Below, in pieces: positions 10,255-56,221 of a DNA stretch of 64,000 bases. The stretch lies in NCBI GenBank assembly GCA_025200525.1, contig CM045761.1, positions 77,467,551-77,531,550 on the forward strand, in the 5' to 3' direction. Below the pieces are notes generated by a model that was not told where the DNA came from, did not search any database, and saw only the letters and a list, made by a program, of their open reading frames with translations. The stretch comes from Camellia lanceoleosa. Its lineage: Eukaryota > Streptophyta > Magnoliopsida > Ericales > Theaceae. The position numbers were made by a program, and so were the translations under genes. Position 1 is the first letter of the stretch, and each line of letters opens with the position of its first letter.

Positions 10255-10350
10255 CACACCACCGGCAGTGGCTAGAGGCCACCGGCTGGTTGATGTTGCC
10301 ATCGGCACTATATTGTGCCGGTCGGCACTCTTTTGTGCTGGCTGGCACTA
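10255..10350. repeat. 20-bp-phased palindromic array in TatX 5' LTR
   Basis: CGGC cores stand at 10263, 10283, 10303 and 10323, with a mutated TGGC at 10343: exactly 20 bp apart five times. The best unit reads GTGCCGGTCGGCAC. The spacers between the ~10-bp motifs are unrelated to one another. The array precedes the TATA-like palindrome by about 160 bp. Confidence 0.85.
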
Positions 10351-10503
10351 AATTTTGTCAAAATGACATTCTCTGCCGGCCGGTTACTGTGCAGTTGCTT
10401 TTTCAGATATTTTGAGGCAGCTGTATGGCATTGGCTTCTCCTCCATACACGTGTATGGAGGGATGCCTCTCTTGTTTTGCTTACTAGCTAAGCTTACAAG
10501 ATT

Positions 10504-10524
10504 GCCTCCTCTAGAAGAGGAGGC
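10504..10524 (+). promoter_or_regulatory. Palindromic core promoter site, TATA lost (TatX 5' LTR)
   Basis: An inverted repeat with GCCTCCTCT and AGAGGAGGC-like arms. In the other LTR the centre reads CTATAAG (25152-25172); here it reads CTAGAAG, which removes the TATA box but leaves the palindrome. It is followed by a pyrimidine-rich leader and TTAGGGTTAGAGAG. Confidence 0.5.
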
Positions 10525-12159
10525 CTTGTCTCCCTTGCTTTAGGGTTAGAGAGATTGGAGAGGAGAAGGAAGAGCTTTGGTTTTTAGGGTTTGCTTTGGT
10601 GTATCTAAACTATATCTATACCTCTTCTTCTCTTGCCCTTGTGTGTGTTTGTGTCTCATTATTGCACACAAGCACATAGTATTTCACCTTCCCTTGGCTA
10701 CTGAGGTCCCAAGAGGTTATTCTTCTTTGTTCTTGGTGGTTTGGAGCTCAAGGAAGCAACAAAGTCAACATATGTGAAGAAGGTCAACAAGGGTGAGAAA
10801 CTTGCTTTATATACCCCATTCTTGCGCTCCATTTTGACCTATCTTTGAACTATTTTTGTGCTTGGTGTTCAATACAAAAAAGTTCTATTTTTTAGTCCTC
10901 TTGACAGTTTATTAAGGGTACTTTGTGCTTTGGGGAAGTTTGGCCCCTCTTAGGCCTTGAAAGGCCTCATTTTTGTGCTATTTTGTGAGATCCCCGGGAT
11001 TTTGGTGTTTGGGTCTCTTCACCACTGAAATCTTAAGGGATTTCAGTGGTGAAGATGATGCCTTAAAGCCCTAAGAAGGAGGGGGTCACCCCCTCTCCTT
11101 GATGTCCTTGAAAAGGGCAAGTTTTGCCTCTTGAGGGGGCATTGTGCTTGAGTGTGTGTTGAGCATGTATGGACTGTTATTCATGCTTAGGATATCATGA
11201 TTTAACATTGCTATGTGTTGGTTTTGGTCCCTTATGCATGCTTAGCATAGTTGCCATGTAATGCCTTGTATTGCCTTAACATACCTTAGGTTGTTAGCCC
11301 TAATTTGAGCATGCTTTAGGCTTAGACTTATGAATGTTTTGTGCTTATTTTGACATGTTTTAGCTCTATCCATAGTCATTTGGGTTGATCTTGGCATGCA
11401 TTATATAGCCCCTTTGCATTTTAGGCTTGCTAGCCTTTGAGCATGGATGTGTAGCATGTGTTGCTTACCTCCTTTTGATGGTTTGGAACCATTTGGTATG
11501 TCATTTCAGTCCCTTTGGTGTGTTTGTATGCTTGCCTTAGTTGCCTCTTTAATGCTTTAAAAGCATGTATACTTTGATATGATTTTAGAGCTCATGTTGC
11601 ATGCTAATCATCCATGTTATCTCCTTTTAAGTGCGCTTGAGAGTGGATTGTTTAATGCCTAAGTTGTGTGCCTTAACATGTGTATATGTGCATGTGTGTT
11701 TAGCTCTCATACTTAGCATCTTGGCTACTGATTTTAGGCCTAGTTAGAGTTGCCTAGATCATGTTTAAGTCCACCCCATTGTTTGGTTTACATGTTTGTC
11801 TTGTAGGTGTGTTTGCATATTAACATCCTCACATTCCATTGTCCATGTTGCATGCTAGCCAACATGCTTAGGATTTCATTGCAATCACATGCATGCTAGG
11901 CCTCTTGAGATAAGCATGATAGAGGTTTGGCACCCTTGTTTGTTTATATGGTTTGCATGCATTTGAAATTGAAAGTGCACATTTGGTTCCTTGGGCCATC
12001 ATGCATGGGAATGCGTGATTGGTGGCCCGAGAATCGAGGCACATACTCCTTTGAGTCACAAATATGATAAGGGGCATGATTAGTGCATACATTGTTGGAA
12101 TTACATTGCCATGCAAGTCTTTGCCCTCTACTGCTGTGAGTTGCAGGTTCTGCAGACAT

Positions 12160-12275
12160 TTAGTGCCGGCCGGCAGTGTTTAGTGCCGACCGGCAGTCAA
12201 CTTATGGCCGATGGATCTATTTTGTGCCGATGAACATCTCTTGCGGCCGGTGGCCATTCTACCCAGCCGGCAGTG
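12160..12275. repeat. Second 20-bp-phased palindromic array in TatX 5' LTR
   Basis: GCCG cores start at 12165, 12185, 12207, 12226, 12246 and 12266 (steps 20, 22, 19, 20, 20). The first two units are TGCCGGCCGG and TGCCGACCGG. It lies about 1.3 kb before the LTR end. TatB has a corresponding array at 46205-46330 in its own motif. Confidence 0.8.
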
Positions 12276-13544
12276 ATCCTAAACATCCATTGAGCATATT
12301 CTGAGGTTTTGGCAGTCTTCAGAGGAGCAAAGTAGGGAAAACAGAGGCAAGCTAGGCATGGAAGTGCAATTCCGAGCGGAATCCAAGCGCACATGCATTG
12401 GGCCCTCGCCCCGAGGCGGTTTACTGTTTTTCTTAGATTAATTATTTTGTTAATTTAATTAATTTGTAATATTTAATTAGCTTATGAGTTAATTAATCAG
12501 ATATTATTTTGGTCCCTCCGAGCGAGGGCAAATCTGTAATAAGTGTGCGTGGGTGTGTGCATGTCTTCCAACCCCCACTTCTTTCTTCCCTTTTATTTAC
12601 CTGCTTATGATGGTAGATTAGGGCACGTCTATTTTAGCATACCTTATGCAATGCATGCGTGCATCCATGCATTTGTCTAAACATGCACCGGGCTTGGTAC
12701 ATCATACAAACTGCATTGTATTTCAAATCTAACTTGAATACGTGATTACTCGTGCATTTCACACGTCATTTTTAGGGTTAGCCGAGCCTATCCTAATTAC
12801 ATGTTGTATGTGTTGCATTAGCCACTTAACATGAACTAGGTCATGCATGTTTGCTAACTAGTTTCTTGTTTTGGCACGGAGTACAATGTAAGTATTTATG
12901 CTTTAGCTTATCGCATGCGTGTGAATGCTAACATGACAGTATGATTACCATGTGGCTAAATGCTTATGTGAGATAAATTGTTTGAATGCCTGTGGGTGGA
13001 GGTTGGATTGCTTGAGTTGGGAAAACTCGTTGAAATCTGTGTTTTAGCCTACTTGCGAGTAGCAAATTCCAAATTGTTTTCCAAACGAATGGATATGCAA
13101 TGTTTATTTCCAAATTAGGCAATCTAGTCTATACTTGTTTGCTGTGCGCATAACATAGTAATTCTAGGCTAATAATTGGAATAAGAGCATGTAATGTTTT
13201 CAAAAACGGATATCACGATTAGTAGAGGCCGGTCCTCGGACCGGGCGAGAGGGGGTGCTCATAGCTGACCTTTCCCAATCGTACCCAAGCTCCCGAGCCA
13301 AGACTACTTTGGTTATGACGGACACGTGGCCTTCGGCACCGAGTCAGGGTTTCCTAAATTTCCCATTTAAAAAATATTTAGGTGGCGACTCTGTATCTGG
13401 CAAAACAGTCCATGTTTGGCACTACTTTTCAAAAATCTGTTCTCTCAAACGATTTGCCAAATTTGGACTCTTTGGTTTAGATTTAGAACCACAACAAACA
13501 AAGGGAGTCCGAACTGTAGCGAGGTCCCCCGCGGGCTTGTTATA

Positions 13545-15244: not shown

Positions 15245-16278
15245 TCAGAAGGTGAACCGCCTGCGGGCCATGTCTTGTATATTTTTGGATGTGGCGTTTG
15301 GCACGCATTTTTGAGCATCTGCCAATGCTAGTTTTGTAAATCCTGACTTGCGTGTCGAGTCAGTCTTTTGTTTTGTTTTTGAGTCTGTCTCTCTGTATTG
15401 AGTCAGTCTTTTTGCTTACAGGGTCTGTCTTGTTGTAACGAGTCAGTCCCTTTTGTATAGTATACCAGGTGATTTTGGGATTGTTGCCTCAAGCATCGTT
15501 TTGTCTTGTAATTAGTTACTTTTGCTTTTTGAGCCTGTTGCTGCCGAGGGGCCGGTTATACCAGCAAATTTGAATGAAACAGCTGTGGCTATCATGTGCC
15601 GTATTTGTTGCTATTTGAGTCAGCCGTGCCGGAGGATGTGAATGGAACGACAGTGCGTACTGCCTGCTCTCTTGGGCCTTGAACATCGTTATGATGACCA
15701 GAGTTTTTTTATAAAACCCTTTTCAAACACTGCGGTGATAAAAACAAAGAGGAAGGAATTCCTCGGGTTTTGCAAAATTTTGACCATTTTGAGAGAAAGA
15801 GAGGCATGTTAAACTTTTAATGAGTGAAATCATGCTCGTCCGCGTGAGTACTGAGAAGGATCCCAGTCCAATCCAGACTGGTTCCACACTACCTTCAACG
15901 CGAATGATTTGTCACTTTATTAAAAACTTTCAAAAACAACATATCTTGCGCAGTCTTGCGAAGACTGATGTGGAACCGCTCTTGAGATTGTGCAGCCCAG
16001 GATCGTTCTTGGTCTCAAGTTTCAATTCATCTGTTGCAAACCGGAATCTGTTCAAAACATTCAGTGCCATGAAACGCCTGTGTGGCCCATTTCAAAGCAG
16101 CCCTCAAGCAAGAGGCGTCAAAGTTAGATCAAGGAGATCAAATCCCACCAAGCAAGGCTCATGAAGTAGCCGTGATGGACTTTTCCTGCAAGTCAATACA
16201 ACAGTCGTTTTCCTAGATACGGAGAGGCTTCATTCTCAAAACCATTTGGCATGGGCTAGCTACACTTTTACCCTTTGA
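15245..16278 (+). pseudogene. TatX pol remnants (almost all of pol deleted)
   Basis: Only two traces of pol are readable. At 15720-15920, KNKEEGIPRVLQNF and VSTEKDPSPIQTGS match the TatB linker before reverse transcriptase. At about 16225-16278, FILKTIW and a terminal TGA match the polyprotein end of TatB (YIIKSIW...YYP). No protease motif, YVDD box, RNase H or integrase catalytic block is present. Bases 15245-15700 hold repeated GAGTCAGTCT/GAGTCTGTCT words and no gene. The deletion explains why TatX cannot be autonomous. Confidence 0.65.
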
Positions 16279-16282
16279 GAGG

Positions 16283-16602
16283 CTCGCTGGGCCGAAAACC
16301 CGGAAGGGCGGCCCAGGCAAAAGTTAGAGCAAAGAAAAAGAAAAAAAAAAGAAAAAAGAAAAAAGAAAAAAAAAAGAGAAAAGAAAAGAACGAAGAATAG
16401 CAAAAGAAAAGAAATAAAAGAAATAAAAGAATGCAAAAGAAATGAAAAAGGAAAAAAGAAGAAAAAAAAAGCTCGCAAGGTTGAAAACCCGCATTGGGCA
16501 CCTTGGCAAACGTTAGAGCCTAAACAGTGAAGGTTAAAATACCCGAGTGTACCTTAACCGGAACTACGTAAGGCTTGATTCCCATGTTTGGGATATGTAG
16601 GC
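16283..16602 (+). other. Post-pol RNA hairpin cluster, TatX copy
   Basis: Hairpin 1 has a perfect 7-bp stem, CTGGGCC (16287-16293) with GGCCCAG (16310-16316), and an inner CCC/GGG. Hairpin 2 pairs CAAGG (16476-16480) with CCTTG (16501-16505) around CCC/GGG. Hairpin 3 pairs CTACGTA (16564-16570) with TATGTAG (16594-16600) and TCCCA with TGGGA. Hairpin 1 starts 8 nt after a TGA at 16276-16278. A purine-only tract has been inserted or expanded between hairpins 1 and 2. Confidence 0.6.
16331..16470 (+). repeat. Low-complexity purine tract (A/AAAAG)
   Basis: About 140 bases of almost pure A and G (GAAAAAAGAAAAAAG-like). Phe/Ser-rich minus-strand open frames across it are artefacts of composition. 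In TatA and TatB the equivalent spacing between the two hairpins is only about 50 bp. Confidence 0.9.
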
Positions 16603-18325
16603 AACTTCATCTTGAAGTCCAGCCCCAACGCTTCCATAGCGTCTCAGTCCATGTCACGGTTTTGATTACTTTTGCCTCCTTCGAATCCAATGTCTCGGTT
16701 GCAGCAACTCGGAATTACGTGATTAACTTCCTCTTGAAGTCCAAACCACCAACACCTTCCAGGTGACTATGTCCATATATTGATTCAAACCGTCTTCGCC
16801 TCCTCCGCGCCCGAGGATCTGATCGTCATCAACGAGGACTGACTCACAAAAATGCCGCGGCATCATCCAAACAAGGGGCAACTTTCCGTTGCCGTGCATT
16901 GCCACAAGTTGCCCCGAGTTACCGTCCAAACCAGGGGCAACTTTCTGCTGCCTCCCCCCCCCCTTTTAAGCCAGGGGCAATTTTCCATTGCCTCCGGTCC
17001 GAGGTTGCGCATCTCGAGGGTAAGTTCTATGCTTGTCGAGCATCGACTATTGGCAAAAATAGTTTTTGAAAATTTTTACTGAGGTTGACTTATTTTCTCG
17101 AAAACTATTTCATTTTCAAAATTGGACCATGTTTGGACCCCTAAAGGAAAATTCTCAGTGCTCACAGCCTGATTCGCATGATTTTCAAATCAAAAATCGA
17201 GTAAGTGTGTTAATCCAACTCTCATTTTGATCAAAGCTGTTTTAGAAAACAAAGAAAAATGGTCGAAGTGACGAACTAGGGGGCATAATTGAGTCAGCCT
17301 TCGTCTCCCCCGCTAACATACTTTTTGGAAAGGCACCCATCTACTGTAAGAAGTGGTCGCAGCTAGTCAGAAGCGTGAACCCACAATCTCCCGTTTACAT
17401 ATCAACCGCACTGGGGAGGGATGAAAAATGAGAGATTAAAGAATAGAGAGGTGCAAGACGAGAGAAAAGTGAGGAGTAGGGTTTTGAGAGAAAAACAGAG
17501 ATTGAGTGCCAGAGTGATGTGAGAATCACAAATGAGAAAGGGTGGGAAATAATACCCGGAGGAACTTCTCTAAATCTGAGGTCTTTTGTAAACATGTCCG
17601 TGTGTCGTGGTCTTTTGATTTGTCGACCTTGATTTTGGCTTTGAGTCTTTTCCGAGCATGTCTCATTAGGTCGTGGTGCCTCTTGTTTCTTTGTTTGAGT
17701 CTGTCTGTCAGATTCTATGGTAGGCTCGATACCGGTTGAAAACCCATCCTCTTCCAAACAAGAATCGCTTGTGCTCGTAATCTCAGGCCATTCTCTACAT
17801 CCGTGCAAAACAAGAGAAGGAAAGGGAAAATTTGGAACATCCGAGTGTATTTCAACTGCAACCGTGTCAGCTTTGTGATCTGTCTCGTCAGATTGGGGCT
17901 ACTTGTTCAAGGTTTGTTGTGTGCAGAATGCACCGAATGCTGTGTTATGAGCTATATGCAGATCGATCCCCAGTAGAGTATGGGGCTGTATATCCAGTTT
18001 GAGCAGTGGTTTGTCTGAGTTGTTTCGCTGTTAATTGGTTGGTTATCCGATTATCATAGTACAATTGTTCAGTTTCCAGACAACAAATCATTTACATTTG
18101 AGGTGTAATATGATGCAATGCAGTGTAAAGTACGCAGATATGAACAGATGTAACATTCTTTTCAGACAAAAGTTTGTTTCATTTCATATCATCTTTTCCA
18201 AATACAAAGTTTGAGGAAAACAAAAATCTGCCTGCGGCAGTACAAAATACTCTATCTACCAACAAAAGAGAAAAGTACAAGAAAAGAAATAAGAAAAACA
18301 GCAAAAGTCTGGGTCATCAACATCA
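16603..18325. pseudogene. TatX 3' non-coding DNA with DUF7745 gene relic
   Basis: The region holds no intact gene. At 16700-17000 the hairpin-3 word GGCAACTT recurs several times (GGGGCAACTTTCC-like). At 17395-17560, read on the minus strand, a pyrimidine tract TTTCTCTCAAAACCCT...TTTAATCTCTCATTTTTCATCCCTCCCCAG matches the single intron of the TatA and TatB DUF7745-like genes, including its acceptor. No exon is clearly recognisable, so this antisense gene has been lost from TatX. Bases 17830-18325 show nothing further. Confidence 0.5.
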
Positions 18326-18649
18326 TCAATGGCTCAAGGCCGGGATCTGTCTCGCCTCTTCCCCGGCGTAAGTCCAGAGCATCACCGAAGTGTCACCGCT
18401 TGAGCCCGAGTTCGAGCCGCCTGCCTCCTCCTCGGATGCCTCCGCCTCCTCGACTCGCTGCTCGAACTGGAGCCCGTGAGTCGCCCCGGCGTAAGCACGC
18501 CTCGTGCGGGGAATATCTTGCCATCCCGAGTAGAAATGGAAGGTCCAGATGGAGCGCCACCACCCACTGGAGGAATCGGGAAAGGAGGCTGAAAAGTACA
18601 AAAGGCAAATGCATCAGTACACATGAAGCAGTTTATCGCTGCGTAATGC

Positions 18650-18855
18650 AAGTATGCAAAGTAATGTGAATGCCGTGAGCAGTTTATCAATGCAGAATGC
18701 AGTGTATGAGTACAGTGTGTGAATGACGTGAGCAGTTTATCAGTGCAGAATGCAGTGTATGAGTACAGAGTATGCATGCCGTGAGCAGTTGAAATAGTAC
18801 AAAATGCAGTGTATGAATACAGTGTGTCAAGTGCCGTGAGGGCTGGGTGTCCAGT
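18650..18855. repeat. Tandem repeat in last intron of TatX PMD gene
   Basis: About four copies of a ~54-bp unit with the words GTGAGCAGTTTATCA.TGCAGAATGCAGTGTATGAG. It lies between exons 5 and 6. Confidence 0.8.
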
Positions 18856-20824
18856 GTTGTGTTATGCATCAGATTATGCGAAGCAGTTTGTGTATGGTTT
18901 GAAGCTATGTCAGAGAGAACATACCGGAAGGCCATAAAAGGCTAAGAACTCGAAGGTCCGCTGCAACATCCCTGCCATGGAGGCATTCATCTCCAATGAC
19001 TGCCGGGTGTACTCGGAGGAAGCCTACAAAAATATCAGATGCATCAATATTCTGTGGAATATCAAATAAACTTAAATGAAATGACTGTACAGAAATGCAG
19101 TAATACATACCGGAGGCAAGTCGGGGATACCGACAAACTCGTGATCAGCCGGCGGAGGGGCGAAGGGAATTTGATAGGTCACCCCATCCGACCCCCGGAA
19201 AGACAGTGAAGAAGGAAAAGCGGGCCAACTAGCCTCCCGTCCTCTCTGGACTCGCCGCCATGACTCGAGCCCTCCTGCCGCCTCCTCCTACTCCGCCACC
19301 GGCCAAGCAGTCTCTCTTCACCGGCGACCACCACCAGAGGTCCGCATGATGAAGGTCCGGACGATTTAAGTAATCGCCTCGCCTCTGGCCGTCCCCACCG
19401 ATGTCAGAGTCCGCCATTCGCTTTCGGTGAAACGCCGGTGTCCTCATATGCTCGTGAGGATGCACCGACTATTCGCCGTAAGCCTAGGTCCGACGCAAGA
19501 AGCGCCACCAGTACCAAGCCCGGCTGCATCGGGCCTTCCAAAGAAAATCCGGTAACGCGAGGTCTCGACGGCGCCAAGAAACCGATCTCCGCACCATCGC
19601 CGCGAGGAGCCCATGGTCGCCAGTGATCTCAAATTGAAATACGCTTGTTACCCATCGTATTGCAAATATACAGTGGAAAAGCGAAGCTTAAATGAACTGC
19701 AAGTAAAACATACCTCTGTGGGAGTGATGGTGTCGAAGTAGCGGCGGAAGAAGCTGAAAGTCTCACGCAGCCTCCGAGCGCACCTCCCGTCATAGCGGCG
19801 TGAGAAGGGAATGACTAGAGGAGTCTCCGTCTCCGGCACTGGCTCCAGCCTGGAAAAGTAGGCATGGACCCACAACTGCAAGACAGATGTCAGAACATTT
19901 ATCAGATAAAGCAGGATACAGAATAAAGCAGAAAAGAGAGGGCCTTTGTTGTACAGTGTATTGAGCAGAGTGTACCGTGTGCACATAAGGTACAACAAGG
20001 TAAACCGTAGTATGTGTGTGCGTGTACAAGATATATACCCCAAAGGAAACAGACACAAGATGTGCAAGCAGTGCATCGAAAGTATAGAGCGTAAATGTAA
20101 AGCGAGGAGAAGACGATTCTCCAAGCTCGCCAAGAGCCTCAAGCAATCGCACGCCACGGGAGACCGAGCTCATGTACCCGTAAAGAGTGGCCAGAGCGGC
20201 GCCACCCCAGTCATAATGCAAGATGTCCCGGACATCCACCAGTGCGCTGAGTAGGCAGAGAGGCACTGTGTTCGCCCGGTCGGCGAAGAGGGTCGTCCCT
20301 AGCAAAAACATCAAAAAGCCACAGACGCTTTCACGGCCGCTTTGCCATCGGCCGCCGCCACCAACGCAGTCGCACTCGAATCGCACCTCGAACCAGGAGT
20401 AGCGGACAAAGCCTGGACGAGCAAGAGGTGGCGCCTCACCAAGCAAATAGATTTGAGCGGCGATCCACTCATCCATATCGGTGTCGAAGGGGATCGGATC
20501 ACCCCCTACCCCGATGCCGGTAAGCACCAAGAAGTTGTAGGGAGTCATCGTCATGTCTCCCGCCGCGGATAGGTGGAACGAATCGGTGGTGTCCCACCAC
20601 CTTCGCCGCCAGGCTAGAAGAGGCTCGCAGCAAGAAGTCGTGTCGCACTCGCAAAGGAACCGGCCCGCCGTCCACAATACGTCGAACCGCCGAAGCTCCA
20701 AATACCAATCTCGAAGACGACGCCCATACCCGCGATGGTATGGGAATCTCCTTGTTTTCAAACAAATAGTTGCGAAGCAATATGAAATGTACAGTTCTGA
20801 GGAAACATGTTAAAGTCGATACAA

Positions 20825-21330
20825 ATCTAGCATGCGTGTAAGTTTTTCAGATTCGAACAGGTACCGGGTGCTGGTGCGCCTACGGTGGACTACAGTGTTT
20901 GATGCGTCAGTGTGTTTTGAGTAAGTGCAATGTAAACATGGTGCACGTGTGCACATTTTCCAGATCCAATCAGATATCAGGTTTCAGTGTACTACGGTGG
21001 ACTACGGCCTGTGATGTGTCAGTGTGTTTGTGAGGATCAGCATACAGATATGGTGCATGTGTGCACATTTTTTAGATTCAAGCAGATATCGGGTTATAGT
21101 GTGCTAGTAGGTGAACTACAACGTATGATGCGTTAGCATGTTTTGTGTGGTTCAGTTTAAATACAGCATACAAAATGTTTTCAGATTCAAATAAGTGCTG
21201 GGTGACGGTAGGTTTGCAGTGAAGTACGGTGTGTGCCGTGTGTTTGGGTGATTGAGACTAGTGCAGTGTGTGTGCATATGTCCATCTTAAACAGATATCA
21301 GTTGTAAGCATGATTGCGATCAACTACATT
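20825..21330. repeat. Tandem repeat in first intron of TatX PMD gene
   Basis: Four to five diverged copies of a ~105-120-bp unit, marked by TTTTCAGATTCAAACAGATATC, ACGGTGGACTAC and GATGCGTCAGTGTGTTTT. The equivalent TatB intron holds a quite different tandem repeat (52030-52990). Confidence 0.75.
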
Positions 21331-22005
21331 GTACAGCATATCAGAGCTAAGCAGTTAAAGAACAGATTCAGCTATGGCAGTTAACAGGCCTACATTGCAA
21401 AAAGTAAAACAGAGAAGAAAAAATGTTACCTCGGAAGCGCCAAAGGATAGGTGAGAGGTCGGCTCGCGCAGGAGAAGCTCCGGGTCCAGCGCTCGGTCAA
21501 AGCCGCGGAAATGGCGAAGACCATCCGGAGGTAGGACATGGATCGCCGGGTGGTATGTCACCGGATCGAAGGGACGCTCGCTCAACGGGAGGAGCTCGAC
21601 CCCGGGATCCATCTCGTGATCCGGGGGAGTCCCGATGTGTGGAACATCATCAGCCATGGCAATGGTAGTGAGAAAATGGCCGGAAAAGCTAGAATGTGAA
21701 AAGTCAACCGAAAAAGTCAACCCCGAGCGGGCCGAAAATGACCGGGAAGGCCGGAAGATGGAAAAGCACGGAAATGAAGAGAAAATCGAGGGGAACAAGT
21801 CCCGAAAAAGTGGAAATAGCGAAGGATGCTCCGAAACGGAATTTCAATCGGTGGAAAATGTCCGAAACGCGAAGAAAATCGTGAATCCGACGACGAAACG
21901 GGCTTGGAACGCGAAGAAAACGAGGAAATGACGAGAGAAAATGCTCTAGAGAGGGAGGGCAAGAGTTTTCGGCGGTGGGGAGGTGAAGAAATAGGGTTAG
22001 AAACC

Positions 22006-22016
22006 CTATTTTTATA
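22006..22016 (-). promoter_or_regulatory. TATA box of the TatX antisense PMD gene
   Basis: On the minus strand TATAAAAATAG lies ~350 bp before the start codon, followed by GGGTTTCTAACCCTATTTC. It sits immediately downstream of the palindromic array at 22060-22165. Confidence 0.6.
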
Positions 22017-22057
22017 AAAACCCGAGGCAAATTGTCAAAACTACCCCCGATCAGTAA

Positions 22058-22168
22058 TTTTGTGCCGGTCGGCACAATATTGTGCCGGTCGGCACAATAT
22101 TGTGCCGGTGGAGTTATTTTGCAGCCGATGGCCAGCCGGTGTCCACCTAGTCCAGCCGGTGATGTTCC
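22058..22168. repeat. 20-bp-phased palindromic array at the antisense PMD promoter
   Basis: GCCG cores start at 22064, 22084, 22104, 22124 and 22155 with an extra at 22135. The first units are identical to the TatX LTR motif (TTGTGCCGGTCGGCAC). It lies about 45 bp upstream of the minus-strand TATA box. Confidence 0.85.
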
Positions 22169-42965: not shown

Positions 42966-43026
42966 AGGTGCATGCACTGCACTTGCTATCTCTATACTGA
43001 TATTTCCAGGATAGGAAAATGTTTTT

Positions 43027-44600: not shown

Positions 44601-46204
44601 CCTCTTTTCTCTCTCTCTACACTGTGAGTTCTCTTCTCTCTCTCTAAACTCAAACTTTTTCACTTAGATCTCTAAATCTACTCACTTAGAGTGATCTTTT
44701 CACCTTGGTCATTTGAGAAAGCTTGTAGATCTTGTCAAGGGCTTCCTTTTGATCCAAGAGTTACGTGGTTTTGTAGACGCGCTACTGAGGGCCCCCGAAC
44801 TCCGCGCTTCTGTGAAGGCGCGAAATTTGTTTGCTCTCTAGCTACTACAGTTCGGACTCAAATGTCACAGTTCTTAATCTGATCTCGCAATGTGCGATAT
44901 GAGATTGATAAATCACCAAAGAGTCCAAATCCAGCAAATCGTTTTGGACAATAGATTTTTAGAAAGAAGTGCCAAACATGGACTGCTTTGCCAGATACAG
45001 AGTTACCATCTAAATATTTTATTTGGGAGAATTTAGGAAACCCTAACTCATGCCTAAGGCCACGTATTTGTCATTACCAAAGTTGCCTCGGCTCGGGAAC
45101 TTGGGTACGATTGGGGAAAGTCATTTAATGAGCACCCCCGCTCGCCCGATCAAAGATCGGCCTGTACTAAGCATGATATCGAGTTTTTGAAAACACATGC
45201 GTTCTTATTCTGGTTAATTAGCTAGAATTACTATGTGATGCGCATAGCAAAACAAGTATACACTAGATTGCCTAATTTGGGAACAAAGCATTGCATATCC
45301 GTTTGTTTGGAAAATGGTTTGAAATTTGCTACTTGCAAGTAGGCTAAAATGCGGATTTCGATGAATTGTCCCAATTCAAGTAATCCAACCTTCACCCATA
45401 GGTATTCAAGCAGTTATATCACATAAGCAAATAGCCTCATGGCAAACATGCTTTCATGGCAACATTAATACACATGCAGTATGCTAAAGCGTAAACACTC
45501 ACAGTGTACTCCGAGCCAAAACAAAGAACTAGTTAAAAATCATGCATGATCCTAGTTCATGTTAAGATGGCTAATGCAACACATGCAAAAATGCAATTAA
45601 GATAGGCTTGGCTATCCTAAGAATGGCATGTGAGATGCAACTCGGTACATGTATTCAAATAGGAATTGAAATACAATGCAGTTAGTATGATGCGCCGAGC
45701 CCGGTGCATGCAATACAGATGAATGGATGCACGCATGCAAGCATAAGGTATGCTAAATGAAACGTGCCCTAAAACTAACCATCGTAAGTGATTAAGTAAA
45801 AGGGAGAAAGAAATAGAGGTTGGAAGACATGCATCACACACACGCACGCTTATTACAACAATTGGCTCTCTCGAGGGAGAGACCGAATAAAGAGCTAACC
45901 ATTTAATCTAAGCTAATTAAACTAATTATTACACAGCAAATTAATTAACTAATCCTAGTTAACTAATTATTACAAAACGAATTGAAAAGCTAACGCATTA
46001 ACTATTAAAGGGACAAACCAAAGCAAAACCTAGCTATCTAAGCATGGCAGCTAAGGAAAGCAATAAAAGCAGGAGGTTCTTAGAGGGAGAAGACTGGATG
46101 CATGCTCGGTTGCCTCGTTCGGAAATCCAATGCGATGCCCCGATTTGCCTCTGTTTTCATTTGTTCTCAGAAACTTGCACCAAGCTTCAGACAGTTGAAA
46201 ATTC

Positions 46205-46330
46205 ACCTTGGGAATCCAGTGGGAGGGTGGCTGACCACTATTGGTCTCTCCAGACCCTTGCCGACCTGTTGAAAACCAAGAAAAGTGGTCGACCAGCTAC
46301 TTTTTCTGGCTAGCCGACCAGTTGTTGCCG
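46205..46330. repeat. Second palindromic array in TatB LTR
   Basis: Words GGCTGACCA, TGCCGACCTG, GTGGTCGACCAGC and TAGCCGACCAG recur through ~125 bp. Position matches the TatX array at 12160-12275, but in the TatB motif. Confidence 0.7.
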
Positions 46331-49300
46331 CTAAACTGCAATTTGCTACAACAGAGAGCAAGAAAGGGCATGTAATGTATTTGCAAGATATGTGTGCACA
46401 ACCACCCTCCCTATCATGTCATGAACTCAAGGGAGTGTGGGTTCTCGACCCTCGGGCCACTAATCGTACATTTTCATGCATGATGGCCGAGAGGCGAAGT
46501 TGCACAATGCAATATGAAAATGAATGCACAAGTAAACACAAAAAGCCTAAAACTCTATCATGGATGATCAAGAGCGTCGGCGACGGGGAATTAAGGCACG
46601 TTTCATCACTGTAAGTATGAAACATCCCTTGTTTCCTGTGTTTGGACTAACACCTACTCCAAACACAATGCAAACAAGTATGGCATACACAATGCGACTC
46701 GAGCATGCAAGTATGCAATATGACTTAAGCATGCAAACATGCAATGCAATATGAACAACCTAACAAGGCTAATGGCATGCACAATGTTAAAGCATGTAAC
46801 AACTAGCATACACAATGCTAAATGCTAAGAACTAGATGGCCTACTCCATGCAAGGCATTCATAAGGTTCTAAGCATAATGTAATGGATGCATGCACAATG
46901 CAATGCAACAAGGGCAACTTATGTCATATACCAAGCATGGCATGCTCAATGCAAATAAACATGTCATATTCAATGGAATATGATCTAAGCATACACAATG
47001 CAAAGTATATGGCATACACAATGTGATAAACATGGCATGCATAATGCGATGTAATGTAAGTATTCAAACAACATGGCATACGTAATGCTAGATGCACTTA
47101 AACTAAAAAGGGTAGGCCTCAGCCATGCCCAAATTAGTGGCCATTAGTGATGAAATGAAGGCACATAAAGCAAGGCATGCATGCACAATGCATTAGCCAT
47201 CAAAGAGGCCAAAGAGCACAACTCTCAAGAGTGCTCAATGAGTGACAAAAGTGGAAGTGTAACAACACTAAGTGCACTGAAATGAAGCAAGAAATGATGC
47301 CAAATCATTCAAACAACATAAGTAAAGCATGCTAGGGTCCTAAGGCATGAAAGCTAGCAAAGAGCAACACAAAGGAGGCATGCAATACATGGCACAAATG
47401 CATGAACTAAGCATGGTTAGAGCTTAAATAGGTCAAAATAAGGACCTAAACAATGCTAAGATAAGGGCCCGAAGGCCTAGGCATGCAAGCATACAAGCTA
47501 AGCCATAAGCTAGGCAAACATGGACAACACTTAAATACATTCAAAGCATGAATGAAGTGGGAACATGACAATGCTATAAGCTCTGAAATGTCATGTTAGA
47601 TGATGCCAAATCATGTACACAACACAAATGAAGCATGCAATGATGCTCAAAGCTTAAGGCAAACAAGAGCATTTGTACTACAAGTATACAAAGCATGAAG
47701 CATGAGATTAAAGCAATCCAAAACAGTCCCAGAACATGTTAAAATGAGTCTAAACCATGAATGGAAGTAAGCCAAAATGTGCTAGCATGAAGGGCATAAG
47801 GCATGATTCATACAAGGTAAATTGGGTGGATTACACTACACCTATTAAGACCAAGCATGGAATGACTTAAGCAATGAAAATCAGAGTTATATCCCAAAAA
47901 CACACTGAGATGGTGGCTCGCAAGCAAAGGCATGAAGGCATACACAATGGTTCATGTTAAGACATAAAGGGGGAAACCCTCCAACGCATTAAATGAGTGA
48001 TAAATGCGAATGTATGGCCATGAAACATGGACTGAAATCATATAACAAGTGATTCCAAAGCACTAAAGTAGGCCAAGCAATGCATGCTAGTGGGTTCAAC
48101 ACATAAGGCTGAAAAGCTAGATTGAACTATAGCTATACAAAGCAAGTCATGGATGAACAATACAACCAAAATTAGACCTTAGACATGTTAAAACATGAAC
48201 AAAGTTTTCTTGAAGTTAAGCCAAAAGCATGCTAGAATGACATGTCACAACATGATGCATGTTAGGCTAGTTTAAGGGGATTGCACTACAAGTACAAGGA
48301 GCATGCCAAGGCTAACCAAACCAACCCAAAATAGAGGTATGACATGGTAAAACAGCCCAAAAACATGCTGAAAAGGACACAACATAGGCTAGAATGAGAT
48401 GCTACTTCATGAAGCATACAAAGCTAGTGTGTGTGGTTTACACTACAAGTGTATAAGGCATGCAAGAGCCAACCAAACCAACCCAAAATAGATCTAAGGA
48501 ATGTCAAAAAAACACTAAAAACCTATTGAGATGGCTCCAAAACAAGCTAGAAACGCATGCTCAAACATGAGGCATACAAGACTAGATTGTGTGATTTACA
48601 CTACAAGTGTGTGAACCATGCATGGAGTGACCAAAGCAAGTAAAAACAGTAGCATGCCTCAGAAAAATAGCCAGAAATACAAGCTAAGACATGGTCAACA
48701 AACACTTAACAAAGGTGCTCAACCATGAGGCATATTAAGGCATGTATTGAAGATACAAGGAGAGGGGATGGCCCTCTCCTTCTTAGGACCTTAAAACACC
48801 ATCCCCACCACTGAAATACCTCTGGATTTCAGTTGTGTGAAGGGAAAAACAAGGTGGTCCCGAAGCTCACAAAAAAGGCTCAAAAACAAGGCCAAACAAG
48901 ACCTAAGAGGGGGTAAACAACCCCCAAAAAAAAAGTGATCTTAAACAAACTTTTTAAGCATGCAAAAACAAAATTTTTATCAGTTAAGTGGTAAGCTTAA
49001 AAATGTGTGCAAGAAGGGCTAAAAGCTTAAGCAAGAGAGGGGGTTTTAAGGCTTAAAAACTCACCCTTGTACAACCGCTTCAAGGCTGCAACTTCAGCAA
49101 GTTTTTTGAGCTTAAACCAGTCCAAGAACACCAAAAACAACCCCTTAGCACCTCAGCACCACAAGCAAGGTGTTTGAGTGTGTGTTAAAGTAAGACAAAT
49201 TTACACTTTTGATGCACAAAAATGAAGAAACAAAGAAATATAGATACAACGCTATATCTATCCTTAGCTAGTTTTTCTGACCTTGGAGGAGGGAGAAGGA

Positions 49301-49320
49301 GCTTCCCTCTTATAGAAGAG
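49301..49320 (-). promoter_or_regulatory. TatB LTR promoter, TATA inside an imperfect palindrome
   Basis: The minus strand reads CTCTTCTATAAGAGGGAAGC. It is about 130 bp downstream of the array at 49440-49560. Confidence 0.6.
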
Positions 49321-49439
49321 GAAAGCCAAAGCTTCTTGGAGAAGCTAAGCTTCAAACAAACCCCTCCATACACGTGTATGGAGGATGGCCATAATGTCCT
49401 CCAGCTACAGCTGGAGGAAACTATCTCCAAAAAGGTGCC

Positions 49440-49560
49440 AAAAAGTAGCCGACCACTTGAAGTGGTCGGCCTGCTAGTTTAAGTGGTCGGCCGACCACTT
49501 TATATGGTCAACCAAAGAAAAAACTGGTCGGCCATAGGTGGGAGAGGTCAACACACTAAA
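49440..49560. repeat. 20-bp-phased GTCGGCCGAC array in TatB LTR
   Basis: GGTC cores at 49464, 49485, 49506, 49526 and 49546 (steps 21, 21, 20, 20). The central unit is a perfect 20-bp palindrome, AAGTGGTCGGCCGACCACTT (49481-49500), which recurs identically at 56202-56221. Confidence 0.88.
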
Positions 49561-50232
49561 TGCAAGGTGGTGGTATGGTGGCCGACCAGAAAAGATGGTC
49601 CAAAGACCAAGAAAGCCAGTTATCTAACAAGAAAACTAGATGGAGAAAGGAAAAGTGGTCTCCAAGGAGAAATACTGGTCTTCCACCCTTGTACCACCTT
49701 CCAAACAAGAAAAACAAGGTTTGTACCAAAAACAAACCAAAGCAGATGCAAGACGAGAAATCGGGAGGCGAAACACGCGGCCAAAAGTCTCGAAAACTAG
49801 GTGACGAGCATCAAAAGTGGTATGCAACCACATAAGTGGTCTACCGAACCACAGTGTTCCTCTAAGTTGAGGCAACAAGGTGTGGTTCAAAAATCACGCC
49901 AAACGGAGAATGTTAAGCGGTCCCGAGACAAAGAGCGCTGCCAAAGGCTCCAAAAATCGAAAACTAATCTCCAAATGGGAAAAGTGGCCTACGACCACAA
50001 AAAGTAGTCTACGACCACAGAGAGATGGTCTACAAGACCACTCCTTCCCTCCAGGAAAGGAAAACAAGACTTGGTCCGCAAACCGAGCCAAAGCACAAAG
50101 AGTTCCGAGGCTTGAAGGCTAGGCTCTCGACCAAAACTCCGAAACCTCAGAACGAGCATAACATGCACCATCACCAAGTGCTCAATCGATGGCGTCTGAG
50201 TCTTAAGATCGGTCAAAAATGGGGTGTCCACA

Positions 50233-50250
50233 GTTGCCCCTCTCTGACAG
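50233..50250 (-). promoter_or_regulatory. Polypurine tract of TatB
   Basis: The minus strand reads CTGTCAGAGAGGGGCAAC directly before the LTR, identical to TatX 24677-24694. Confidence 0.85.
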
Positions 50251-51190
50251 AACTCGAAAGTCATAAGTGACGGGAGTGAATGTCAAAGCCCAGAGATGAC
50301 CTATTTTTGACAAGACCGAAGACTTAGACAAACAGGAAAGATAACAAAGAAATGTGCCCCAAGCAGGGGCAAAATGCAAGGGACATGCACAAAGCCGAAC
50401 ATAACTTATGATCATGCAAAGAAAGCTGTAATGAAGCAATTATGCAAAATAAATGCAACAGTTTTAAGCAGGTGAATACAAATCAAACTACATTACATGC
50501 AGAAAGGATGTAAGAGAATTATACAATTCTCATCACGTCTCACACGAAGTACATACAATACTTGTCCGGTTCGTCTGGTCGCGCCAGTTTCAAATGAACC
50601 GTACATACAATATCGTGCCTGCAAAAGAGAGAAACTCAACAGGTACAATATTGTTAGAAACATGCATAGCAATGCAAGTGAAAAGTGCGTGATAACACAA
50701 GTCGAGGGATGCATGACAATGCAACCTAAGTGTGACGCATAACAATGCGGTATGGATGCAAAACAATGCAACCGAAACGAGCGCGCCAAACCAAGTAGTG
50801 AGTGTGTAACAAAGCCACAAGTGGTGTGCATAACAATGCAGGTAAAACATGCACGACAACGCGTGCGAAAAGTGCAAGAGAATGCGAAAGAAATGCACAA
50901 CTTTAGATGTATGTTTGAAAGGAAACGCCGAAAAAGGAAACGTAGGCTTTAACAAGCGTAATTCAGCAATAACCTCCGATTTACCTCTCAGAAGGGTCGT
51001 AATATACTTAAAAAAGGATACACCTCGCTCTTTGGACAAGTGACGATGAGCCATACATCAAAGACTTGAATCGGAGTTCCGTGGGGACATTTTCGAGCCG
51101 AAAAGTGTTACTTTTCTTGCACTTTCTCGAGAACCGAGGACTCCAATCACCACCAAAACACACAGGGAGAACAATGGAGCTCTGAAGATC
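50251..51190. other. TatB non-coding DNA between PPT and antisense PMD gene
   Basis: No gene is seen. It contains inverted homology to TatX 24326-24420 (CGTACATACAATATCGTGCC) and diverged ~35-bp repeats with GCATAACAATGC words at 50640-50900. Order matches the TatX region 22169-24676. Confidence 0.6.
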
Positions 51191-51300
51191 ATTAAGGAAG
51201 CTGGCCGACCAATTATAAAGTTGGTTGACCAGTTATTGCTCACCAAAGTGGTCGGCCGACCAGAAAAACTGGCTGGTCGACCAGTTTTTGAAACTTCGGG
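51190..51300. repeat. Palindromic array upstream of TatB PMD gene
   Basis: Units CTGGCCGACCAA, TTGGTTGACCAG, GTGGTCGGCCGACCAG and CTGGTCGACCAG, the first two 20 bp apart. Same motif as the TatB LTR. A possible TATA remnant CTTTAAGTAC lies at 51326-51335. Confidence 0.8.
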
Positions 51301-52029
51301 GCAGTTTGGTCTTTTAAGCTTCGACTCTTTAAGTACACCACTCCAAATCAGTTGGTATCACACCTTCAAGGCCGAAATACATCCTTCTTGCTCCCTAGAC
51401 CCTTTTTTCTCTCAAATCTGCACTTTGTATGCGTTTTCCAACGCCCCACGTGAAGTTGTTTTGCGAAAACTTTCAATTTCCTTTTATTTGAACCGATTAG
51501 AATTTGTTTTCGAAGTCTCTTTCTCCATTTTCACCACTTGAGGTATGTTTGTCTCAAAGTTTGGCACCTTTTCTCAGGTGTTGACTTTTGTTGACTTTTT
51601 CTTCCCGAGAGTTGACTTTTGTTGATTTTTTGCGATTTTGGCTTATTTTGCTCATTTTCTCATCTTTTGCAAATTTATTCAGATGGCCGACGATATTCCG
51701 TATGGCGAAGACTTTCCGTACACGGAGGACGAACCTGACATCATACTGTTGCCTTCGAGGATACGACATTCGATCCAGAGGAATACGACCCGCAAGAGCA
51801 CATTCTACCTCCTTGCACCTTCTATCACTTCACAGACTTCGTGCAGCGGGCACCTGAAGACCTACTACTGCTGGAGCCGAAGTCCCATCTTTCTCATCAC
51901 GCACATGAGGTACATACTACATTTTCACATGTTCTGTGATGTATTTTGTCTGCTCATCATGAACATATTCTCATATCCAGTACTTCAGTCATTCTGAACA
52001 CACAGTTCGTACATAGCATTCTGCTGACT

Positions 52030-52990
52030 TGGTGCACAGCATATTTGGGCACACAGCACATTTGGGCACACAGCATATAACACCGCTCAATCTGAACACT
52101 CAGTCCATAACACAACATTCTGTTTAGTTGGGACACAGCTCATAACATAGCACACTTTTGCATTTTGAACACACAGCTCGAAGTTTTAAATTTATGAACA
52201 CGCAGTTCGAAATTTTGATTGTGAAGCCCACAATTTTTTATGAAGTTTGAACACGCAGCCCAAACTTTTGTTGTTGTAAACATGCAGCCCACAAATTTTG
52301 AAGTCTAAACACGCAGCTCAAACTTTTGTTGTTGTGAACACGCAGCCTACAAATTTTGAAGTCTGAACATGCAGCTCAAACTTTTAGTTGTTGTGAACAT
52401 GCAGTCCACAAATTTTCAAATCTGAGCACGCAGCTCATGCATTTGAATTTGAACACGCAGCTCAAAGTTTTGGTGAACACGCAGCCCACATCTTTTGAAA
52501 TTTTTAACACGCAGCTCAAATGTTTTGGTGAACACGCAGCCCACATCTTTTGAAATTTTGAATACGCAGCTCAAATGTTTTGGTGAACACGTAGCCCAAA
52601 TCTTTTGAAATTTGAAATTTTGAACACGCATCTCAAATGTTTTGGTGAACACGCAGTCCACATCTTTTGAAATTTTGAAATTTTGAACACGCAGCTCAAA
52701 TGTTTTGGAGAACACGCAGCCCACATATTTTTCAAATCTAAACACGCAGCTCATGCATTCGAATTTGAATACGTAGCTCAAAGTTTTGGGGTCAACACGT
52801 AGCTCATGCATTTGAATTTGAACACGCAGCTCAAAGTTTTGGGTTGAACACGCAGCTCACATATTTTTCAAATCTGAACGCGCAGCTCATGCATTTTAAT
52901 TTGAACACGCAGCTCAAAGTTTTGGGGTGAACACGTAGCTCACACATTTTCATTTGCACGCAGCCCATACATTTCAATCTGAAACTGCAG
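52030..52990. repeat. Tandem repeat in intron 1 of TatB PMD gene
   Basis: About 30 half-units of ~27 bp (GAACACGCAGCTCAAA...TTTT alternating with GAACACGCAGCCCACA), forming a ~54-bp higher unit with TTTTGAAATTTTGAACACGC. It fills most of the 1.1-kb intron. Confidence 0.9.
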
Positions 52991-53739
52991 CGCATACATT
53001 TCATTTCTGAAACAGAATACATCTGTTCATTCTGAATGCAGGTATCTTCCCGTTTTACACGGGGTTATGGGTCCGTCCTTGCGAGGGAGTGGTACGCGGA
53101 GCTCCCAGATACTATCCAACGTATTGTGGACGAGGGAGGGTTCGGCCCACTCTGTGCGCGATTGTCACGTCATTCGGCGAGCAGAGCCCTCCTGGGCGCA
53201 CTTGTAGAGAGATGGTGGGACACCACCAACTCCTTCCATTTTTCGGCCACTGGGATATCACGATGACCCCATTTGATTTCTCCATGCTAACGGGCCTTGA
53301 TGTGGGAAGCCGGTCGATCCCATACGGCGCAGACATGGGTGAGTGGGAGGCCGCATGGATCTACCTGCTCGGAGACCATCCACCAATCGATAGATCGTCA
53401 GGTAGAGTCAAGTACACTGGGTTCGTTGAGCATTACCGGAGGACTATGCCCCAGATGATTGAGGCCATACATCAGTATGCCTGGGGATTTTTGATGTTCC
53501 TTTTCGGGACCACACTGTTCTCTGACAGAGGGAACACAGTTGGACTTTATCTGCTGAGTGCTCTAGTGGACCTATCACAGGTCCGGTGCTTTGATTGGGG
53601 TGGCGCTGCCCTCGCTACCCTTTACTGCTACATGAGCGCGACCTCCTGCGAGCGGGGGACCATAGTTAGAGGCTACTGGCGAGCCTGGGAGGAACATTCT
53701 GCCCTCTTGATTTACAGTTCTATTTTTTTTTTATTATCT

Positions 53740-53995
53740 ATACACTGCACACGGCACGCATTACATTCTATATTCCGTGTTTCGCACTCAGCACTCTACA
53801 TTCTCTGTACATTTTGTATACTGCACATAGCATTCTGCACTCAGCATTCTATATTCTTTGTACATTCTGTATACTGCACACACCATTCTGCACTCAGCAT
53901 TCTGTATTCACTTTACATTTTGTATATTGCACAAGACGTGCACTAAGATTCTCAGATTCTCTGTACATTCTATATGCTGCACACAAGATTCTCGA
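53740..53995. repeat. Tandem repeat in intron 2 of TatB PMD gene
   Basis: Four to five copies of a ~53-bp unit with CATTCTGCACTCAGCATTCT and TGTACATTCTGTATACTGCACA. Similar words (TGCATTCTGCA) occur in the unrelated-position tandem repeat of TatX (18650-18855). Confidence 0.85.
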
Positions 53996-55551
53996 CTCAA
54001 GATTCTCAGATTCGACGCCACTTTGTTTTCCCTTTTACAACTGTGGGTTTTTGCATATTTCCCGACGCTGGCTCCGGAGCTTGAGGTTGAGGTACCCCTG
54101 GAGATCCCCTACTCGCACAAATTTGAGAGTCGGTGCCAACCGAGGCCCCGGCAGACTTTGCTCTTCCTCCGACAGTTCTTCGATACTGTACGGACAACGG
54201 AGGTAATCTAGAACTCTCAATTTTTCATGCTTTCAGTTTTGATTCATCTCACATATTCATGACATCTAATTAGTTCATGCACTTGCTACCCTCAGGTGAA
54301 CTGGCAGCCTTGGATAGCCATGCCAAGGAATCCTCAGTTTCTGTTCCCTCGGGCATGGGGCACTTCGCGATACAGGGTTCTGCTTGAGGGACCGGTTGGC
54401 AGAGCGTGGTTCCTCGGAGAGCGCTTCATGTGCCAGACGATGGGGAACTCCGATCAAGATGTCCCCTCATTGCCTCCATCAGAAATGCGGTCTTCAGGGG
54501 ATCTCACACCCCGGAAGACGGAGGACCTCATGTTGGGTATTGACCCGGTCCTTTTCCTAGAGGAGAGAGACTATGCGACATATCGCCATACTTATTTGAT
54601 GCCCCCACTGTCAGATGTTCGTGCCTCCAGGAGGAGGGCTGTTGACGTGCCTTGCTCGAGTCGCACCCGAGGTAAAGACATTCCTTCGACCAACGGAGCT
54701 GGTACATCGAGGGATGGGGTTGGATGGATGCCCCCTACTTGCTAGTATGCCGGATGGCTAGATCTTCCAACCAGGCTGACAGGTTGGGAGTATGGGACAC
54801 CATACCAGATCCCGCTACAGCCTCCGAGGCCAGATCACCGATATGTCAGTGACCCTGACTCACCACCAGTATGCTTCACAGTTTTCATTTATCACTCAGA
54901 TATTTAGATATTCATTCATTTACTGACGACTTGAACTTGGGTCTGCAGCCTCCCAGAGAGTACACTGATGGGTTGCTCGGAGTGGTGGCCTCGTTCAAGG
55001 GCATGGTCTTAGGAGAGAGACACTGCTGCACTCCTACAGCATTCTGGTATTTTCCAGTCTTCTTGTACTTATCATACTTCTGATGACATGCAAAACTGAA
55101 CATTTCACCATACTGGCTCACTGCATGTGTAAAGCACATCTGTCACACCGCATTCACATACTATATCTGCATGCACTCATTCTATACATCATTCTTGTAT
55201 CTGATATACATGCTCTGGCTTATGTACCCCAAACTGTCTTTTTAGGTCGCACCTGTACTGCCCGGGCCATCCCAGCCTTCTCGAGTAGCTAGGAGATGAG
55301 CATCGACTCGCTGTCGAGGTGGGCGCAGAGCACCTGCCAAATATGAGAAAGAGTCTAGCGAGGAGGATTTAGTACATCCACAGTCAGAGACATCTGCAGG
55401 TAGAGATGATGACTCCAGTTCGGGTTCTGAGGATGGAGGTGACACCGAGGAGGTTTCTGAGGGTGGTGACTCTAATTCAAAAGGGGGTGCTGACGGCGGT
55501 GGCGCGGAGGCTGTTCAGCCGAAGAGAAGGAAGAGGGCCTCTCGGTCTTGA

Positions 55552-56110
55552 GCTTCTTAGCACTGATGTAGATGATCCTGCTTTATGTTTCTTTTCACAT
55601 GTAGTTGTAGCACATTGTACAACTTAGACAGTTTTATTTTCTTCAAAACTTGTACCCTTTTGTAAAATGTTGTAAAAAAAGAAGCCATGATGGAATGAAA
55701 ACGACTTTTTGTTCAAAAAAAAAGTGTTGTACTTGTATTCTTAGTATCGCATCACATTGCACCATTTTGCACAAAAATGAATTTGAATGGAGATTAAACC
55801 CTGTGTATTACCAAGTCAGGTAGTGAACCGACGCAACAAACTAAACAAATTAACTCACTAAAAAAACAAAACCTTAGCAAGTTTACAACTCGATAAGCAA
55901 CGAGCAACAACTCAATAAGCAAAGAGTAACAATTCGATAAGTAAAACTTAACAACTCGATAAGCAAAACTTAACAACTCGAAGAGCGAAGGCATTTTGAG
56001 ACAAACAAATTGACAAAATGCACCCGAAACAGAGGTAAACTTGTACCTTCAATACTCTCAGCACACAGGAAAGCTAGAGACTCCCTTCTAGAGGAAAGAA
56101 ACAGCTGGAA
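55552..56110. other. Spacer between the TatB antisense genes
   Basis: No coding region. CTTGTACCCTTTTGTAAAA and an A-run near 55718 mark the presumed 3' end of the PMD gene. An AACTCGATAAGCAA repeat occupies 55870-55990. Confidence 0.6.
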
Positions 56111-56114
56111 ACCA

Positions 56115-56221
56115 GCTTTTTTGCACATGGCCGACCACTTTTAGAGCATGCCGAGCAGTTTTTCTGTCTGGAACCCAAAAAAGTAGCTGGCTGACCAGAA
56201 AAAGTGGTCGGCCGACCACTT
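56115..56221. repeat. Palindromic array at TatB DUF7745 promoter
   Basis: GCCGA cores 20 bp apart, then a GGCTGACCA unit, ending with AAGTGGTCGGCCGACCACTT (56202-56221), the same 20-mer as in the LTR at 49481. A decayed TATA (CATAAAGG, about 56275) and the start codon at 56330 follow. Confidence 0.85.

Follow-up and report, generated by a model that had tools for sequence, protein, structure and literature searches.

VANDAL transposons of Arabidopsis carry multiple copies of short motifs in their noncoding parts (PMC5735166, PMC10398659), with a motif that varies from one related family to the next and is altered jointly within each; this and the other known systems are described here from the available portions of the cited papers. 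Here we report a similar anatomy in long terminal repeat (LTR) retrotransposons of Tat type, in a stretch of 64,000 nucleotides of the Camellia lanceoleosa genome (assembly GCA_025200525.1, contig CM045761.1, positions 77,467,551 to 77,531,550 of the forward strand; hereafter the window). This plant DNA holds nested Ty3/gypsy elements, TatA, TatB, TatX and TatY, in which phased arrays of palindromic dyads stand at sense and antisense promoters, in wording that groups by element and, across the window and 36 copies sampled from the genome, by type of the element's PMD gene. As in VANDALs, a protein encoded by the element is at hand, here a PMD protein with faint DUF1985 similarity. An initial annotation had compared the arrays with VANC targets, and the likeness is borne out as family-matched motif arrays in noncoding parts of the element. 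The two systems also differ: VANC21 motifs stand in one orientation, whereas the Tat sites are palindromic dyads, often 20-21 bp apart; VANDALs are DNA transposons with VANA, whereas Tat elements have LTRs, RNase H and integrase of Ty3/gypsy type (VANA itself was not searched for); and VANC binds its motif and removes DNA methylation, whereas for the Tat proteins binding is a proposal drawn from the sequence.

Among retrotransposons, PMD is found in 57% of Ogre elements and PMD-A clades occur in Gypsy elements; the available portions of these accounts do not describe promoter motif arrays (PMC6317226, PMC5418596). Retand elements resemble the present ones in their antisense TRP28 open reading frames (ORFs), for which DNA binding and element regulation have been proposed, in family-specific tandem repeats and in having some non-autonomous members; they differ in the protein domain and in their repeats, which lie between pol and the 3′ LTR and are not tied to promoters (PMC11963269). 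Tnt1 likewise has protein-binding boxes, the BII boxes of U3, in its LTR promoter, but these are bound by defence-induced factors and concern the sense promoter only (PMC3316501). MAIN, MAIL1 and PP7L are PMD proteins tied to a ‘DOWN’ promoter motif and to the silencing of transposable elements, but they are products of host genes and the motif is a different one, CATGCAGTTT in the MORC1 promoter (PMC7156037, PMC9899485). That PMD proteins encoded by transposable elements may counter silencing has been put forward in a review (PMC8616336) and suggested for PMD captured by a Mutator-like element (PMC5418596). Ogre PMD ORFs, antisense TRP28 in Retand and the anti-silencing idea are already in print; no description of Tat promoter dyad arrays was found in a literature of which subscription papers and preprints were incompletely covered, nor anything relevant on the word CGCTCGAGCG.

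Phased dyad arrays at sense and antisense promoters

The array units are mostly palindromic dyads of 14-16 bp, typically 20-21 bp apart, and occur at four places, by which the arrays are labelled (letter for the element, digit for the place): 1, the sense LTR promoter (TatX, TatB, TatY); 2, deeper in the LTR (TatX, TatB); 3, the antisense PMD promoter (TatX, TatB); and 4, the antisense DUF7745 promoter (TatB, TatA). Array 1 of the TatX 5′ LTR (10261-10390, +) has five units exactly 20 bp apart, with CGGC at 10263, 10283, 10303 and 10323 and TGGC at 10343, followed by a further GC-rich dyad at 10375; its 3′ LTR copy (24913-25003, +), ahead of TATAAG at 25160, has CGGC at 24996 as the counterpart of the TGGC unit. 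The array at the TatX PMD promoter (22056-22160, -) shows GCCGG at 22064, 22084 and 22104 and GCCGA at 22124, upstream of a TATA box at 22016-22017 (-). In TatB the arrays stand in the LTR (49447-49595, -; GTGGTCGGCCGACCAC type, TATAAG at 49314 on the same strand), at the PMD promoter (51197-51290, +; downstream just TTTAAG, at 51313 and 51328) and at the DUF7745 promoter (56123-56221, +; CATAAA at 56277), and one 16-mer recurs exactly at 49483 and 56204 and with one mismatch at 51248. TatA has its array at the DUF7745 promoter (1217-1302, +; TATAAA at 1360), and TatY in the LTR (42781-42970, +; GTGTACGGCCGGCCAC and GTGGCCGGCCAGCCAC, TATATA at 43028). The coordinates given initially for TatX and TatB proved correct, the CGGC/GCCGG cores and the TatB 16-mer being found there; the LTR-internal arrays at 12160-12290 (TatX 5′ LTR, +; counterpart in the 3′ LTR at 26806-26930, +) and at 46225-46330 (TatB, -) are additions to that annotation.

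Other parts of the initial description need amendment. It had given palindromes of about 10 bp with unrelated spacers of similar length; the units are indeed palindromic but longer, and units 1-5 of the TatX LTR share the dyad and not the spacer. A hand-picked set of spacers is 94-100% AT, unlike those of TatX LTR units 1-3. Arrays had been placed upstream of TATA boxes at nearly every promoter. Three kinds of promoter do bear them, with about 40 bp from array edge to TATA-like box at the TatX PMD gene, 56-58 bp at both DUF7745 genes and about 130-160 bp in the TatB and TatX LTRs, but no TATA-like word lies within 350 bp of the LTR-internal arrays and no array was seen at the TatX DUF7745 remnant. 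Between array 1 and TATA, the TatX and TatB LTRs share an identical 22-bp palindrome, CCTCCATACACGTGTATGGAGG, with a G-box-like CACGTG (10440-10461, 25088-25109 and 49363-49384), while the adjacent array differs.

The dyads and their spacing exceed chance expectation in the window. The core GYCGGYCGRC, itself derived from the arrays, has 21 matches with at most one mismatch, 18 of them inside arrays, for a null mean of 2.7. A blind scan for CG-containing dyads returned 102, with six pairs exactly 20 bp apart; other spacings from 13 to 60 bp gave at most two pairs each, and the null was 0.17 for 20/21. None of the six pairs lies in TatB, TatA or TatY, and two are the LTR copies of one array. 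By autocorrelation, each of the three TatX arrays examined had 20 as its top lag (z 7.1, 4.5 and 7.2), and lags 20 and 21 were positive in all six non-TatX arrays, with a different top lag in B1, B3, A4 and Y and individual significance outside TatX in B4 (p 0.01) and Y (p 0.0075) only. The 20-bp period first claimed for all families thus holds best for TatX and is weaker in TatB, TatA and TatY. Of 1,825 tiles, 29 had a best lag of 19-22 with a match of at least 0.42, and since 17 of these lie elsewhere than the TatX arrays (12 tiles), a period of about 20 bp is not unique to Tat arrays.

Wording by element and by PMD type

Shared 6-mers connect the arrays of one element: all nine within-element pairs of arrays from different places (three TatX, six TatB) beat 500 of 500 shuffles, as the initial annotation would have it. 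It had also held that wording differs between elements, and five of six same-place pairs show no clear sharing (shuffles as good, of 500: X-B 147, 400 and 89; B-Y 145; A-B 40), the sixth, TatX with TatY, being taken up below. The TatA array additionally shares words with B1 (1 of 500 shuffles), X2 and Y (2 each) and X1 (12). When boxes were anchored on TATA boxes or homologous flanks and compared with 300 shuffles, within-element pairs reached z 3.2-5.4 at k=6, a value attained by at most one shuffle, and X-B and X-Y at the LTR, flanks included, z 2.2 and 3.4. Aligned across elements, the arrays reach 44-49% (42-44% when shuffled), against 58-70% for LTR flanks, 66% downstream at DUF7745 and 53.7% for one flank of the PMD place. 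The dyads are nonetheless variants of one scaffold, with half-sites GTGGCCGG in TatA and TatY, GTGGTCGG in TatB and GTGCCGG in TatX. For words picked after inspecting the arrays, TGGTCGG has 13 of its 15 window occurrences within TatB arrays, GTGCCG 19 of 35 in TatX arrays (both LTR copies included), and GTGGCCGG four of five in TatA/TatY.

Across the 3.0 Gb genome, a TatX 16-mer has 7,099 exact matches (3,506 + 3,593) and its reversed control none. Among the first 100 places listed, 13 neighbour gaps are exactly 20 bp and none falls between 21 and 2,499 bp; all 41 gaps up to 17 kb join same-strand matches, mostly at TatX dimensions, and 7, 12 and 8 gaps approximate the PMD-to-3′ LTR, 5′ LTR-to-PMD and LTR-to-LTR distances. 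A viral contig collection gave 21 matches, one each, which we take for chance, and PMD relatives were found neither there nor in a genome contig collection.

The genome sample consists of the stretches upstream of 36 PMD genes, chosen from lists and mostly good matches: 20 of at least 77 candidates of type P0044, 12 of at least 72 of type P0001 (that of TatX) and four of at least 76 of type P0107 (that of TatB). All four P0107-type copies have TGGTCGG at both LTR and PMD promoter and none has TGGCCGG or GCCGGCC; in three, the best lag-21 stretch lies within the LTR array. In the P0044 type, 15 of 20 copies carry at least two GCCGGCC matches at both places, and the word occurs 10.9 times per copy against 0.57 by chance, 201 of 218 occurrences lying in two intervals that were defined after viewing the matches; the exceptions are two copies without it at the PMD place, two with another cluster further upstream and one with none. 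Measured between GCCGGC centres, the gaps in these copies (L031-L050; positions near -3.6 and -1.7 kb relative to the PMD domain) concentrate at 21, 27, 31, 36 and 57 bp, which may reflect increments of roughly half a helical turn; in several of the copies, repeats of AACACGCAG type also lie no more than about 1 kb upstream of that domain.

The P0001 type has a 20-bp array at the PMD promoter in 11 of 12 copies and at the LTR too in eight, and wherever full dyads lie less than 200 bp apart (11 gaps) the distance is 20 bp. Its half-sites vary (GTGCCG, TTGCCG, TGGCCG) and match between both arrays of the same copy: in the eight copies having both, the mean cosine is 0.92 within and 0.49 between copies, an agreement reached by 16 of 40,320 permutations in a test devised after viewing the arrays, and the commonest word is equal in six. 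The expectation that periodicity and wording would follow family in other members was therefore upheld in the sampled copies, with the P0044 type too loosely spaced for the two-turn phasing seen in TatX-type copies, and families differ in wording by PMD type as variations on one scaffold.

Candidate readers of the arrays

We think it somewhat probable that the arrays are clusters of binding sites for a dimeric regulator that the element itself encodes, the best candidate being the antisense PMD-type protein (PMD or the PMD-like DUF7745 next to it). That the dyads are bound, by which protein and to what effect, we infer from their anatomy. Each dyad would take one dimer of a sequence-specific nuclear protein, and with a spacing of 20-21 bp, adjacent dimers would be separated by two helical turns and so face the same side of the DNA. 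Since sense LTR and antisense promoters share their wording, the antisense protein would simultaneously govern the genomic RNA and the gene that encodes the protein; drift of the recognised half-site (from TGGCCG to TGGTCG, GTGCCG or TTGCCG) would alter all arrays of a lineage jointly. The most plausible effect would be to keep promoters accessible despite host silencing, the role of VANC in VANDAL elements, and the protein would act on relatives lacking pol as well; in favour of this reading, TatX, in which four TatB pol ORFs have no tblastn match, retains its LTRs and arrays along with a PMD gene. The anatomy would suit autorepression too. The narrower proposal of a VANC-like self-recognition code, in which antisense PMD/DUF7745 proteins are distant relatives of the VANC domain, belong with MAIN/MAIL1 to one protein family and hold open the promoters of their own family, pol-less TatX included, we advance only tentatively.

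In a tree of the PMD domain the three types separate, P0044 and P0001 with strong support and TatB + P0107 with just 88/70. Within P0001 the TGG-type copies branch first, with GTG and TTG types inside, many forks being weak and TatX on a long branch; since TGGCCG is also the word of P0044, TatA and TatY types, this suggests, within the limits of the weak forks, that it is the ancestral wording. The Pfam scan covered 69 of at least 120 PMD relatives: 67 match PMD, and DUF1985, the domain of VANC (PMC5735166), is the second commonest match, in 11 (best E 0.0033), the four matches with a known place covering model positions 83-138. DUF1985 was not found in 17 of 20 relatives scanned singly, nor in the TatB query, and as a firm assignment it was rejected. 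The Pfam PMD model matches 12 of 20 DUF7745 relatives, and an acidic tail followed by a basic end, as in nuclear proteins, is present in three of ten full-length relatives and one TatB frame. An AlphaFold model of the antisense protein was too poor for use (mean pLDDT 46.6, pTM 0.41), no relatives were found by sequence in the PDB (queries A1 and A2, E up to 1), and NCBIfam gave no match for three proteins. Named PMD relatives among the matches listed are from Camellia, as are those of DUF7745 except two from Rhododendron.

A number of observations weigh against an element-encoded regulator, or against PMD as its identity. Two of the six blind 20-bp pairs fall in an unrelated LTR. P0044-type spacing is loose (13 of 53 gaps at 21 bp, 8 at 27 and none at 20), and within-copy sharing over broad windows is mostly non-significant (P0001 p 0.16-0.55, P0044 0.03-0.35). 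In the window the X1-Y pair shares words (2 of 500 shuffles as good), and at k=7 the anchored boxes of X-B and X-Y at the LTR give z 4.5 and 4.6 with 0 of 300 shuffles as good, flanks included; for the PMD place, alignment of the upstream flank (48.0%) does not surpass that of the array (49.0%). The initial annotation had called for a comparison of motif with PMD phylogeny: PMD distance correlates weakly with wording at the PMD promoter (Mantel r 0.36, p 0.034, 11 copies) and not significantly with that of the LTR array (r 0.11, p 0.18, 8 copies). Wording tracks the lineage of the element, which fits PMD and equally any other gene of the element, because descent ties together everything in one element. 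The four DUF1985 scores seen are 12.4-13.5 bits against a cut-off of 35.1, one unrelated Pfam family has a better E in one PMD relative, and a profile comparison of PMD with DUF7745 gives a probability of 6%. Finally, the host PMD proteins MAIN and MAIL1 act in silencing, with another motif (PMC7156037, PMC9899485).

It is rather unlikely, in our judgement, that the arrays are instead enhancers for host factors, for example of ERF/DREB type, with families using different host factors. ERF/DREB factors bind RCCGAC, and this core or its complement is present two to six times in each TatB array, once or twice in each TatX array and twice in that of TatA; it is absent from TatY and so is not a common denominator, and a common DRE core as the sole explanation was rejected on that ground. 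The 20-bp palindrome pairs of an unrelated LTR also speak for host factors, as does the precedent of Tnt1, whose BII boxes bind defence-induced factors (PMC3316501). Host factors are, however, common to all families in the nucleus, and would not be expected to make separate places of a single lineage change in concert.

More doubtful still is that a host repressor or silencing machinery recognises the arrays, a change of wording being the element's escape. CG and CHG sites abound in the dyads; between the TatX 5′ and 3′ LTRs there are 57 transitions, 21 at CG and 13 at CHG, and one dyad of the 5′ LTR has lost two CpGs by C-to-T, as expected of methylated copies. In tea, moreover, phasiRNAs arise from PMD genes, with 175 PHAS loci (PMC10673657). 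Escape should nevertheless disrupt phased dyads, not recreate them with new, consistent wording at separate promoters.

We give least credence to sharing by local duplication, gene conversion or common descent without a binding protein, which would suit the short tandem units that Tandem Repeats Finder reports in the TatX arrays, the spread of VANC target repeats through tandem duplication (PMC5735166) and the joint inheritance of both arrays of a copy (because of which copies are not independent), but not TatX LTR units 1-5, which share dyad and not spacer in exact 20-bp register, nor the like change of non-homologous places while LTR flanks did not change so.

The elements and the meaning of the arrays

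TatX lies on the plus strand, with LTRs at 10039-13542 and 24694-28191 (+; BLAST match bounds, 97.5% identity), and TatB on the minus strand, with an LTR at 44909-50233 (-; approximate bounds via matches to the TatX LTR). Both carry antisense the extra PMD ORF reported for many Ogre elements, frameshifted and with an approximate 3′ bound in each case: at 18300-21657 (-) in TatX, with PF10536 in ORF 19793-20809, and at 51683-55550 (+) in TatB, with PF10536 in ORF 53011-53943. TatB adds an antisense DUF7745 gene (56330-57553, +), of which TatA carries a relative, and has protease-like, RNase H and integrase domains within 58.2-63.3 kb; TatA is similar to it across 1327-8457 (blastn, 72.7%). Two RNase H domains, the second an additional aRH, mark the Tat lineage (PMC6317226), and TatB (RT_RNaseH in 60001-60630, RVT_3 in 58610-59863) and TatA (5020-5616 and 4430-4966) belong to it since each has both by Pfam; no reverse transcriptase (RT) domain appeared in the Pfam scan of the TatB ORFs examined, and TatY was assigned by its LTR alone. 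Four TatB pol ORFs match TatA at 49-75% and have no tblastn match inside TatX, where about 300 bp (15720-16011) match one of them at 67% by blastn. TatX looks like a pol-deleted element that retains LTRs, arrays and PMD gene, because short remnants of the TatB stretch spanning DUF7745 into pol persist at 15700-17600.

The final ~1 kb of the TatX and TatB LTRs (12446-13485 and 44909-45952) is 81% identical, as are the LTR start and adjoining internal end (24264-24793 and 50135-50677), other aligned LTR stretches reaching about 69-75%. The unrelated Ty3 element mentioned above (CCHC-RVP_2 and RT domains at 32.8-34.6 kb) has GCTCGAGC palindromes at 30352-30575, 37061 and 37126, forming three pairs, each exactly 20 bp apart, in its apparent LTR; because a TATA-like stretch at 29659 lies ~0.7 kb upstream, they stand inside the LTR and not before the promoter. 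A 29-bp tandem repeat of this LTR (GGGCCAAAGGCC type, 30917-31086) recurs at 34574-34729 directly after the RT ORF, which suggests internal deletion or recombination.

These arrays bear on the question of what antisense PMD/DUF7745 genes are for in Tat/Ogre elements, a major component of large plant genomes. If our reading is true, a cis code at several promoters would supply the DNA target that the idea of PMD anti-silencing has so far lacked, sequence-specific anti-silencing would reach beyond DNA transposons to LTR retrotransposons, and the service of such proteins to members without pol would become explained.

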